A DNA stretch of 64,000 bases, taken from the NCBI GenBank assembly GCA_937934745.1, contig CALGZC010000004.1, positions 62,001 to 126,000 of the forward strand. The letters run 5' to 3'. Both the position numbers and the translations under genes were made by a program. Shown here piece by piece: positions 9,056 to 14,639 of this stretch; within the stretch, counting starts at the first letter, position 1, and every line of letters begins with the position of its first letter. Source of the stretch: an uncultured Blastocatellia bacterium. Its GTDB lineage: Bacteria; Acidobacteriota; Blastocatellia; Chloracidobacteriales; Chloracidobacteriaceae. The notes below the pieces were generated by a model. The model was given only the letters and a program-made list of their open reading frames with translations, did not search any database and was not told the origin of the DNA.

Positions 9056-10684
9056 ATGCATCCCCGTGAAGCACACAGCCCAGAATTCGATGTCGTGGTC
9101 GTCGGCGCCGGTGTGGCGGGTCTGACCGCGGCCGCTTTGCTCCAACGCGATGGCTACCGCACGTTGTTGCTTGAGGCCCATGATAAGGCAGGCGGCTGCG
9201 CGGGGTATTTTTTTCACAAGGGATACACCTTTGACGCCGGCGCAACTGTCCTGATGGGGCTGGACGCCAGCGGCTTGCACACCCAGGTGTTGGCACGCCT
9301 CGGGGCGACCGTACCGGAAAGCACGCTCATCGAGTGCGTCCCGGTCCACCTGCCCGACCGAACGGTGAACATCACCCATGACCAGGCGGTATGGACGCAT
9401 GAGCGCGTTGCACGATTCGCCCGCAACGCTGCTGAAGCCGAGCGCCTTCAGGCATTCTGGCAGTTAGTGGATCGAACGGCAGATGCCATGTGGGCGGCAA
9501 CGGCGAAGCTACCGGCGCTGCCACTCCGCCGCTGGCGCGACGTGGTCGCGAATGTACGCTTAGTTTCCCCTAGTTTCATCGGCGTTACGCCGTATTTGTT
9601 TTCAACCGTTGGGGATGTTTTGCGTCGTCACCGGTTGGAGGACAATGCACCGCTGCGGGCCTTTCTGGATGGTCTGCTGTTGATCACGGCACAGGAAACG
9701 GCGGACCGTGCACCGTTTCTGAACGGCGCTGCTGGGCTAGACATTTACCGCCATGGCATTCGCCGCGCCCGCGGCGGGATGAAAGCCTTTATCAAGGCGC
9801 ACGTTGAGGCGTTTTGTGCCCTGGGTGGCGTGTTGAAGCTGCGGCAGCGTGTGACACGCCTGACCCCGCAGCCCAGAGGCGGTTACGTTGTGGAAACCGA
9901 GCGCGGTTTGACCGTGCATGCGCCGCGTGTTGTGGTCAACCTGCCGCTGTGGAACATCCCAGGCCTGGTCGGCACGAAGCTGGCAGCGCCGCTGGCGCGT
10001 TCGCTGGCAAAGGCCGGTAAAGGCTGGGGTGCGTTTACGCTCTATCTCGGTGTCCGCGCCGACGTGATTCCTGCTAATGCGCCTCTCAACCACCAGGTTT
10101 TGCTGCGGTACGGTGAGTCGTTTGCAGACGGCAACAGCGCATTTCTGAGTCTGAGCGAGCCGGACGACCGGGCCAGTGCCCCGCCGGGGCGGCGAACACT
10201 CAACGTTTCGACGCATACCGAAGTTGACGCGTGGTGGAATGCCGATGCCGAAACCTACGCGGCGCGGCGTGCGGCCGTTGCCGAGCGCCTGTTGACCGCC
10301 GTTGCGCGTGTCTTCCCTGACATTCGCGCCGGCATCGAATGCCTGCTACCAGGGACGCCGGTGACCTTTGCGCGTTATACGGGACGCGCCCAAGGGATGG
10401 TCGGCGGTTTGCGGACGACCATCTGGAACAGCAACCTATTTGGGATCGGTGTCCGTGATGTTGGGCTCCCGAACCTCTGGATTGTCGGTGATACGGTCTT
10501 TCCCGGGCAGGGAACACCGGCCTGCGCCCTCTCCGGCATCAATGCCTGGCGGGACATCACGGGCTGCTGGACGCTTCAGGCACCCCTTGTCAAACCCCAT
10601 CCGTTGCGTGCGCCGTCCTCTGCTGCACTGACCCCTGAAACGCCGCTATCCGGACGGCGCGCTGAAGGCAAGGCAGTTGTCTAG
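9056..10684 (+). CDS. CrtD-like carotenoid C-3',4' desaturase (FAD-dependent)
   Basis: This 542-residue FAD amine-oxidase-fold enzyme belongs to the phytoene-desaturase superfamily. It has the dinucleotide motif VVGAGVAGLTAAALL (about 14-28), the GGCAGYFFHKGYTFDAGAT block typical of cyanobacterial-type CrtD/CrtH/CrtO enzymes, and a C-terminal flavin motif NLWIVGDTVFPGQGTPA. The cyanobacterial CrtD-like blocks favour a 3',4'-desaturase. Chloracidobacterium is reported to make deoxyflexixanthin-type carotenoids, which need such a step. CrtO ketolase and CrtH isomerase are the alternatives. The C-terminal 40 residues are a low-complexity tail. It follows miaA by 8 bases. Confidence 0.7.
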   Translation: MHPREAHSPEFDVVVVGAGVAGLTAAALLQRDGYRTLLLEAHDKAGGCAGYFFHKGYTFDAGATVLMGLDASGLHTQVLARLGATVPESTLIECVPVHLPDRTVNITHDQAVWTHERVARFARNAAEAERLQAFWQLVDRTADAMWAATAKLPALPLRRWRDVVANVRLVSPSFIGVTPYLFSTVGDVLRRHRLEDNAPLRAFLDGLLLITAQETADRAPFLNGAAGLDIYRHGIRRARGGMKAFIKAHVEAFCALGGVLKLRQRVTRLTPQPRGGYVVETERGLTVHAPRVVVNLPLWNIPGLVGTKLAAPLARSLAKAGKGWGAFTLYLGVRADVIPANAPLNHQVLLRYGESFADGNSAFLSLSEPDDRASAPPGRRTLNVSTHTEVDAWWNADAETYAARRAAVAERLLTAVARVFPDIRAGIECLLPGTPVTFARYTGRAQGMVGGLRTTIWNSNLFGIGVRDVGLPNLWIVGDTVFPGQGTPACALSGINAWRDITGCWTLQAPLVKPHPLRAPSSAALTPETPLSGRRAEGKAVV

Positions 10685-11977: not shown

Positions 11978-12802
11978 TCAGATGAAGAAGTCAGGGAGCA
12001 GCTCGGCCGTTGGGTCCACCGCATAAGGGGTGAAATCGGTAACGCCGGCATGGCGCAGTACGTCCTCGTCAATGAAAAAGTTGCCCGTGCAAGTGCGACT
12101 TGATTGGGTGAGGATCGCATAAGCGGCATCGGCCATGATCTCCGGCTTGCGACAACGGCGCATTGCCTCCAGTCCACCGAGGAGATTGTTGACGGCCGCC
12201 GTGGCAATGGCCGTCCGCGGCCACAAGGCGTTGACCGCCACCCCTTGGGAACGAAACTCTTCGGCCATGCCCAGGACGCACATACTCATACCGTATTTGG
12301 CCATCGTGTACGCGACGTGGGGCGCAAACCACCGCGCCTCCATGTTGAGCGGTGGTGAAATGTTGAGAATGTGTGGGTTAGCAGCTTTGAAGAGGTGCGG
12401 CAGGCAAGCTTGTGAGCAAACAAACGTCCCGCGCGTGTTGATACGGTGCATTAGATCATAGCGCTTCAGGGGCGTTTCCAACGTTGGCGTTAAGCTGATA
12501 GCACTCGCGTTATTGACTAAAATATCAATCCCGCCGAACGTCTCGACCGTGCGTGTCACCGCCTCTGCGACACGCTGTTCATCCTGGATATCCACAACGA
12601 GCGGGAGGGCCCGCCCGCCGGCCGCTTCGACTTCGGCTGCCGCCGTGTAGACCGTGCCAGGCAGTTTCGGGTGTGGTTCGGCTGTCTTGGCAGCAATTGC
12701 GATATTCGCTCCATCGCGCGCGGCCCGCAGGGCTATCGCCAGACCAATGCCACGACTGGCACCGGTGATGAAAAGCGTTTTTCCGGCTAAAGGTGCTGTC
12801 AT
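11978..12802 (-). CDS. HSDL2-like short-chain dehydrogenase
   Basis: The protein has 274 residues and the classical SDR layout: cofactor motif ITGASRGIG near residue 13, NNASA motif, and the YTMAKYG catalytic Tyr/Lys with an upstream LNISPPLN that matches the SPPLN signature of hydroxysteroid dehydrogenase-like 2 proteins. The VNALWPRTAI motif also fits that group. Bacterial relatives are often annotated as citronellol/citronellal or fatty-alcohol dehydrogenases, so a lipid or isoprenoid alcohol is a plausible substrate (inference). The usual SCP2 domain of animal HSDL2 is absent. It is first in a likely operon with the HtrA protease. Confidence 0.85.
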   Translation of the reverse strand: MTAPLAGKTLFITGASRGIGLAIALRAARDGANIAIAAKTAEPHPKLPGTVYTAAAEVEAAGGRALPLVVDIQDEQRVAEAVTRTVETFGGIDILVNNASAISLTPTLETPLKRYDLMHRINTRGTFVCSQACLPHLFKAANPHILNISPPLNMEARWFAPHVAYTMAKYGMSMCVLGMAEEFRSQGVAVNALWPRTAIATAAVNNLLGGLEAMRRCRKPEIMADAAYAILTQSSRTCTGNFFIDEDVLRHAGVTDFTPYAVDPTAELLPDFFI

Positions 12803-12991
12803 CGGCTTGTCTCCCTCAAGCTTATATGCCTTAGTGCGGCGTACCGGTCACTTTGCGGCAGCCGGCGATGGCTTGTCTTCTAGCATAACGCCCCAGAAAA
12901 AAGGCCATCTCTTACACAGAGCTGCATGTGTTAGCATGAAAACACGAATGTTCCTTACTCAGCCCGTTGAAAGCAAGGGGAGGACGCAGCT

Positions 12992-13114
12992 ATGGAAGAC
13001 ATCAGCAAGGTGGCCTGGGCTTGGTTCGGCGTATTGCTGGCGATCTGCGTTATTGGTGCATTTGGCAACTACATACCAAAGTTGTTTGTCAAAATGCTCA
13101 TGTTTTTGAACTAA
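12992..13114 (+). CDS. 40-residue single-helix membrane peptide
   Basis: The frame encodes 40 residues starting MEDISKVAWAWFGVLL and ending KMLMFLN, with one hydrophobic helix (about residues 7-26) and a short amphipathic Lys-containing tail. A strong ribosome site (AAGGGGAGG) lies about 9 bases upstream, and there is a plausible promoter region with no overlapping gene on either strand. Type I reaction centres, including the Chloracidobacterium one, carry very small one-helix subunits. Size, topology and the neighbouring phytol-kinase gene make such a role conceivable, but the sequence alone does not show it. Confidence 0.6.
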   Translation: MEDISKVAWAWFGVLLAICVIGAFGNYIPKLFVKMLMFLN

Positions 13115-13280
13115 AGCACGTCCGGTTCACATCCCGGTCTCTCCCGGCCCTGAGAGGCAACCATTGTGTCGCGCATGCGACAGAAAACGGTTTGCCAGGC
13201 AGGCGTTGGTTTCAGTAGGTTGAAGGCAGGCGGCCAGCATGTCCCCCTGCCTTTTCCTTTTTGAGTTGAGAGTGCGCAGG

Positions 13281-14639
13281 ATGGAAGTTTTTGATTATTC
13301 CTGGCGCGCGGCGCTGCCGGTCGGAGTGGTAGACAGTTCATCAGAAGCGCGGCGACGGTTGGTCCACATCGGCATGGGCCTCTTTGCACTGATCATCGCG
13401 TCGTTCTGGCAAACCCTGCTTATGGGGTTGTCGGGGCTTGCGCTGGCGTGGGTCTTGCCCAAATGGATGCCCAGTTTACTCCGCCCCCATGAACAAGTGC
13501 AGGGCTATTCAGTCGGCGTCATTGCTTATCCGGCTGCCGTCGTCGCGCTGACGCTTTTGTTTCCAAGGGATTTGTGGATTGTTGCCGGTGGGTGGGCGAT
13601 GATGGCCTATGGTGACGGCATGGCGGTCGTCTGCGGCCGGGGATTGCGCGGTCCACGTTTGTGGTGGAATCCACGGAAAAGTCTGTGGGGAACACTGGGC
13701 TTTGTGCTGTTTGGCTGGTTTGGGACGTTGGTGACGGTGCTTGTGGTCGGTGGGCATCCCTTCACACCGCTGGGCTTAGCGGCGGTTGTGCTGGCGGCGG
13801 CCGTGGTAGCCGCGCTGTTAGAGTCGCTCCCCTATGACATCTGTGACAACCCATTGGTGGCGGGAGCGGCGGCACTGGTGATGTTGTTGGCCGTGCAGAT
13901 TGACCAGAGTGCGTGGCTTGCCGCGCAAGCTGACGTTGTTGCACGGTTGCCTGTTGCCATCGGCCTTGCCGCCATCCTGGCCTTACTGGCCCGAGCGACC
14001 AAGTCGGTGGATTGGTCAGGCGCCCTGACCGGGGCTGTCTTTGCCTTCATCCTCTACACGGCATTAGGTGTGGTGGGTGTTGCCGGACTGATGGCCTTCT
14101 TCATTGTTGGGACGGTGGCTTCAAAGGTTGGCTACGAGAAAAAACGCGCCAAAAAAACGGCGCAGGCAGTTCGCACCTGGCGCAATGCGGTAGCCAACGC
14201 GGGGGTTGCGGCGCTGTGTGCGCCGTTTGTCGTCTTGACGCCACGCCCTGACCTATTCACCGTCGCCGTGCTGGGCGCGTTTGCCGCTGCTGCGTCAGAC
14301 ACCGTCGCCGGTGAAATCGGACGTGTTTATGGGGGCACACCCTATTCGATTGTCACTCTGCGCCGGGCGCAGGTTGGTGACAACGGGGCAGTCTCGGCAG
14401 TCGGTCTGCTGACGGGACTGGCGATTGCCGTCGCCTTTGGTGGCCTGGCCTACCTAGCGACAGACCCTATCCTGCATAGGGCGGTGTGGTGTATTGCCGT
14501 TGGAGGCATGGTCGGCAACCTGTGTGATAGCTTCCTCGGCGCAACGGCTGAAAATGCCGGCTATCTGGACAATGAAGCCGTCAACTTTGCCTGCACATTG
14601 AGCGGAGCCATACTTGCCGCCTCGCTGTTTGCATTATGA
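13281..14639 (+). CDS. Fused phytol kinase (VTE5-like) and phytyl-phosphate kinase (VTE6/DUF92-like)
   Basis: The 452-residue polytopic membrane protein is two enzymes in one chain. Residues 1-210 match CTP-dependent phytol/dolichol kinases: EARRRLVHIGMG, YGDGMAVVCGR (110-120), NPRKSLWGTLGF (130-141), and ESLPYDICDNPL (181-192). Residues 225-452 match DUF92/VTE6: DWSGALTGAVF, ASDTVAGEIG (338-347), NLCDSFLGA (413-421), NEAVNFACTLSGA (431-443). Together they would turn free phytol or geranylgeraniol into the diphosphate, recycling (bacterio)chlorophyll tails for new chlorophyll or quinone. A longer start at 13239 is possible. The next gene overlaps by 4 bases. Domain calls are firm; the substrate is inferred. 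Confidence 0.85.
   Translation: MEVFDYSWRAALPVGVVDSSSEARRRLVHIGMGLFALIIASFWQTLLMGLSGLALAWVLPKWMPSLLRPHEQVQGYSVGVIAYPAAVVALTLLFPRDLWIVAGGWAMMAYGDGMAVVCGRGLRGPRLWWNPRKSLWGTLGFVLFGWFGTLVTVLVVGGHPFTPLGLAAVVLAAAVVAALLESLPYDICDNPLVAGAAALVMLLAVQIDQSAWLAAQADVVARLPVAIGLAAILALLARATKSVDWSGALTGAVFAFILYTALGVVGVAGLMAFFIVGTVASKVGYEKKRAKKTAQAVRTWRNAVANAGVAALCAPFVVLTPRPDLFTVAVLGAFAAAASDTVAGEIGRVYGGTPYSIVTLRRAQVGDNGAVSAVGLLTGLAIAVAFGGLAYLATDPILHRAVWCIAVGGMVGNLCDSFLGATAENAGYLDNEAVNFACTLSGAILAASLFAL

Follow-up and report, generated by a model that had tools for sequence, protein, structure and literature searches.

Whether very short open reading frames encode genuine proteins, and to which complex these proteins belong, is a question raised by a 40-codon frame with ATG start and TAA stop in the window, a 64-kb stretch of DNA from a Chloracidobacterium genome (G000). 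Its product is MEDISKVAWAWFGVLLAICVIGAFGNYIPKLFVKMLMFLN. The initial annotation regarded the frame as a real gene and guessed from size and setting that its product belongs to the type I reaction center of Chloracidobacterium as a mini-subunit. Our comparative analysis indicates that it very probably encodes PscW (designated PscG in the PDB), a small component of the homodimeric type I reaction center with a single helix that would seal the edge of the complex or serve as a docking helix and would be transcribed on its own. The locations of the relevant features are given in Table 1.

Table 1. Location of pscW and of neighboring signals in the window, with the evidence for each.
Feature	Position	Strand	Evidence
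pscW, 40-aa single-helix type I reaction center subunit	12992..13114 (stop codon included)	+	PDB identity, conservation, pN/pS
Ribosome-binding site GGAGG	12979..12983	+	8-nt spacer to ATG; identical motif and spacing in 7/7 genomes
Candidate extended -10 element, TGTGnTAGCAT type	12927..12937	+	Conservation only: 8 invariant columns in the 7-genome alignment
Hairpin with T-rich run, candidate pscW terminator or leader of the next gene	13222..13254	+	Stem invariant in 7/7 genomes

The comparison with the small chains of published structures, which the initial annotation had proposed, gave a direct answer. A phmmer search of the 40-aa peptide against the PDB retrieved two chains, 7vzr_G with 45 residues (matched over residues 1-40 of the peptide at E 8.6e-23) and 7vzg_G with 38 (matched over residues 3-40 at E 2.2e-21), and no other chain matched at E up to 10. 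Both entries, 7VZR and 7VZG, represent CabRC, the reaction center of Chloracidobacterium thermophilum, as solved by cryo-EM (PMC9751088). The window peptide shares 38 of its 40 residues with chain G of either entry, the C. thermophilum protein having L and V in place of V20 and I28, and both are single helices. Chain G bears the name PscG in the searched PDB copy. In a table of a review (PMC10968294), 35 residues are listed for PscU, 45 for PscW and 36 for PscV, and the function of each is given as unknown. Since the 45-residue length matches that of PscW, chain G is probably the PscW of the literature (45 residues versus 35 and 36). The genome that harbors pscW also encodes PscA and FMO, and its PscA matches 7vzr_A across all 865 residues. 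The guess of a reaction center mini-subunit is thus supported by the 38/40 identity. The subunit itself is already known from C. thermophilum, and the gene in the window is its ortholog in another Chloracidobacterium genome; among the matches listed in the openly licensed literature there is no gene-level study of pscW.

In the genomes searched, the detected copies of pscW follow the genus boundary. A protein search detected the gene in seven of the ten family genomes searched, i.e., in all seven of these that represent Chloracidobacterium (G000 to G006), with orthologs that are 93-98% identical to the window peptide and 36 of 40 invariant columns; G001 and G005 share identical pscW DNA, so that the seven genomes represent six distinct sequences. 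When 162 genomes of the class were searched with a profile, the same seven were recovered at E below 1e-29, and the remaining 155 gave no significant match. At E up to 10 some match was obtained in 92 of the 162 genomes, the best outside the genus (E 0.035) lying within a 303-codon frame, and the matches in the 85 genomes beyond Chloracidobacterium are taken as chance. A scan of 84,980 species with two peptide patterns, a procedure that reaches close relatives and may leave out records near the genome of the window, matched 70 stretches, of which two loci were confirmed. Over all genome pairs the mean pN of pscW is 0.031 and the mean pS 0.59 (ratio 0.052), and the variable columns are distributed over the three codon positions as 6, 1 and 25 (25/32 in the third position). 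This comparison of nucleotide sequences shows the gene to be under purifying selection. Sequence variation in PscW is roughly as low as in PscA (95-98% identity within the genus) and mostly lower than in the proteins encoded by the flanking genes, namely, a kinase-like fusion (77-86%), an SDR (88-92%) and a protease (88-92%). The conservation in related genomes on which the initial annotation had made its reading depend was found in the genomes of the genus (7/7).

These observations bear on two competing explanations of the locus. Small frames are frequent in the window, with 1984 candidates of 25-75 aa if nested starts are counted, which by itself would make a chance open reading frame conceivable. 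However, a product identical in 38 of 40 residues to a solved protein chain, a pN/pS of 0.05 and a ribosome-binding site retained with its spacing in all seven genomes rule this out, and we consider a fortuitous frame vanishingly improbable. Any match to a ribosome-binding site combined with a transmembrane-like stretch occurs in eight of the 1984 small frames, and the combination of a strong site with such a stretch in pscW alone. Under a stricter cut-off (hydropathy >= 2.0), simulating the window 40 times with a first-order Markov model yielded a mean of 0.025 such frames (one in a single simulation, none in 39) versus the one observed. The peptide might also belong to some other membrane complex unrelated to the reaction center, for example, to an oxidase as one of its small subunits, since size and a single helix would suit many such peptides. 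Against this stand the PDB matches, which at E up to 10 come exclusively from the two CabRC entries, and the failure of the product to match any Pfam or NCBIfam family at E up to 0.01. The affiliation to an unrelated complex, which would have contradicted the initial annotation, is hence rejected as very improbable, and we retain the assignment to PscW.

The properties that had been ascribed to the gene stood up to a different extent. The ORF, the strong ribosome-binding site, the occurrence in 7/7 genomes and purifying selection bear out a real gene of 40 residues. The assertion that no other gene overlaps it holds in part: three open reading frames do so mechanically (12654-13109 and 12967-13218 on the plus strand, 12955-13068 on the minus strand), but the substitution pattern between the genomes agrees with the 40-aa frame. 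It was overstated that the gene is too short for most gene callers. The default minimum gene length of Prodigal is 90 nt, which is below the length of pscW.

The match to the deposited chain raises the question of the correct start codon. In the 45-residue sequence of 7VZR the residues EGVA precede MEDISK at the positions shown, and the same order is obtained if the genes of G001 and G005 are translated from an ATG five codons upstream. This upstream ATG overlaps the GGAGG ribosome-binding site. An in-frame start at the position of the PDB sequence is present in three of the seven genomes (ATG in G001 and G005, TTG in G006), and other upstream in-frame starts are scattered (in G003 a GTG at a distance of two codons, in G005 a TTG at eight, in G002 an ATG at 18) or absent (G000, G004). 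In the window, the ATG of pscW is the earliest possible start past the preceding in-frame stop, without any upstream in-frame ATG, GTG or TTG. Since the inner start is preceded by GGAGG with an 8-nt spacer in all seven genomes and the outer one exists in three, the start of the 45-residue PDB sequence is probably placed five codons too early, and the true product would have 40 residues. The five additional N-terminal residues of the C. thermophilum chain are thus probably untranslated. A longer N-terminus was rejected, because the window lacks an upstream in-frame start and the ATG of the PDB sequence is confined to G001 and G005, where it overlaps with the ribosome-binding site. In 7VZG, the first residue of the 38-residue chain corresponds to D3 of the inner form, which is compatible with either start.

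The gene neighborhood is conserved. Longer stretches compared in six genomes (G000, G001, G002, G003, G004, G006) show one gene order, namely, SDR, pscW (transcribed divergently from it), kinase-like fusion and a protein-kinase-like frame, and pscW of G005 is likewise located between SDR and fusion. The protease gene adjoins the SDR gene in five of the six; the contig of G002 stops at the latter. The initial annotation had drawn on this setting, and while the link to the reaction center stood, the setting proved to be weak evidence for it, because the pscA-fmo cluster resides elsewhere: in G000, pscW is found on contig C4 and pscA and fmo on C40, and where both are on one contig they are separated by about 158 kb (G001), 48 kb (G003), 157 kb (G005) and 121 kb (G006). 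The kinase-like fusion (13281-14639) has a near full-length match in the eight genomes with PscA (G000 to G007), whereas the match in two relatives without PscA is confined to the C-terminal DUF92 half. This distribution would agree with a function in phytol salvage. The Pfam match covers the DUF92 half only, and the "kinase" label of the N-terminal part stems from the initial annotation.

Two further observations concern phototrophy genes of these genomes. The window contains a CrtD-like carotenoid desaturase gene at 9056-10684, whose best NCBIfam match, TIGR02733, reaches 310 bits and thus remains below the cut-off of 549.7. The PscA matches in G003, G006, G002, G001 and G004 (L030, L031, L032, L033, L035) show one or two internal stops, perhaps because the query includes residues that precede the true start; the first residue of 7vzr_A falls at residue 16 of the PscA query.

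The DNA around pscW provides candidate transcription signals. A consensus scan of 12780-13320 revealed no sigma-70 site with two hexamers, and in Rfam nothing matched 12700-13320 at E up to 1. The downstream hairpin has a folding energy of -17.0 kcal/mol (z -2.1; 6 of 200 shuffles at least as good), a longer stretch a z of -1.6 (13 of 200 shuffles as good), and the hairpin is unlisted by a simple terminator scan. The candidate -10 element upstream and the hairpin downstream suggest that pscW, which lies apart from the pscA-fmo cluster, would be transcribed as a separate unit.

The region between pscW and the kinase-like fusion (13190-13262) represents conserved non-coding DNA that comprises the invariant GTAGGTTGAAGGCAGG and the hairpin in all seven Chloracidobacterium genomes. 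Among the reported hits at up to two mismatches it is present in a single copy per genome, plus one control hit in G001, and no copy was found in G007, a member of a second genus. It could be the terminator of pscW or, alternatively, promoter and leader of the following gene. A palindrome of the type CTTGTAGCACAAG is located upstream of pscW in four of the seven genomes (G001, G002, G004, G005; L003 1388-1400), and the copy in the window (12877-12889) is degenerate. At up to two mismatches the window contains one match, which is not upstream of pscW, versus 0.95 expected by chance.

The single hydrophobic helix recognized by the initial annotation is corroborated by a hydropathy maximum of 2.18 over 19 residues and by the AlphaFold2 model, which consists of one helix (residues 2-39; mean pLDDT 81.7). 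PscW would span the membrane with a single helix, and its C-terminus would be cytoplasmic according to the positive-inside rule (K30, K34). The structural study (PMC9751088) describes the C. thermophilum protein as a single-transmembrane subunit of which each complex contains two, located in regions I and IV at the PscA dimer edge. There it adjoins helix 7 of one PscA and, on the other PscA, helices 1, 2, 10 and 11. PscV occupies the same regions, and the antenna pigments are assigned to PscA (PMC9751088). The peptide lacks histidine. Based on placement, the pigments of PscA, the missing histidine and the modeled helix, we infer that PscW is a peripheral structural helix that would seal or stabilize the PscA dimer edge or else offer a surface on which other membrane proteins could dock, and that most likely binds no chlorophyll. 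With a view to PscU, PscV and the polypeptide that is left unidentified in the structure, small open reading frames with a hydrophobic stretch were listed in the window and at seven loci; the comparison with the PDB covered pscW only.

Alternatively, PscW might act mainly as a docking or energy-coupling surface, with FMO, the carotenoid-binding protein or further membrane proteins as partners, instead of stabilizing the PscA dimer. The consulted parts of the literature regard it as equally likely that the peripheral subunits interface with other membrane proteins (PMC9751088) and report that FMO and the carotenoid-binding protein are absent from the structure (PMC10968294). However, these excerpts name no partner of PscW outside the reaction center, and no feature of its sequence points to one. 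We therefore regard a predominant docking function as possible but rather unlikely, and a structural helix at the dimer edge remains our preferred reading.

Small subunits with one helix are found at the edge of other homodimeric type I reaction centers, namely, PscE and PscF in green sulfur bacteria and PshX in heliobacteria. PscW resembles them in size, helix number and position, but none of them matched it in the PDB search at E up to 10; sequences so short can lose detectable similarity. With respect to placement, PscU, PscV and PscW are closer to the low-mass proteins of photosystem II than to those of HbRC, GsbRC or PSI, as stated in the structural study (PMC9751088).

The relatives of Chloracidobacterium provide an evolutionary perspective. 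In G007, PscA was found as two pieces on separate contigs, with 84% and 87% identity, and FMO is present as well, so that a phototrophic organism with a reaction center of this kind is to be expected. Its kinase-like fusion is 66% identical and is preceded by different genes. No pscW was found in this fragmented assembly (1090 contigs, 90% complete) at E up to 10 with either single-sequence or profile search. In two further family members, G008 and G009, neither PscA nor FMO gave a match at E up to 0.001, and pscW none beyond chance (two weak profile matches in G008, best E 1.85). Because pscW is undetected in G007 despite the presence of PscA, the subunit may not be essential for this kind of center. 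A tentative and rather doubtful extension, to judge from the gene distribution, is that PscW is an invention of Chloracidobacterium, that G007 builds the same kind of center without it, and that small subunits joined an older core late and one at a time.

A reaction center chain that had been derived from density is now tied to a conserved gene, a start codon and a neighborhood in seven genomes, and at least this one small subunit is encoded apart from the pscA-fmo cluster. The probable correction of the start, the conserved neighborhood, the candidate transcription signals and the question of an absence in a second genus are new here. The possible lack of pscW in G007 bears on how type I reaction centers gained their peripheral subunits.
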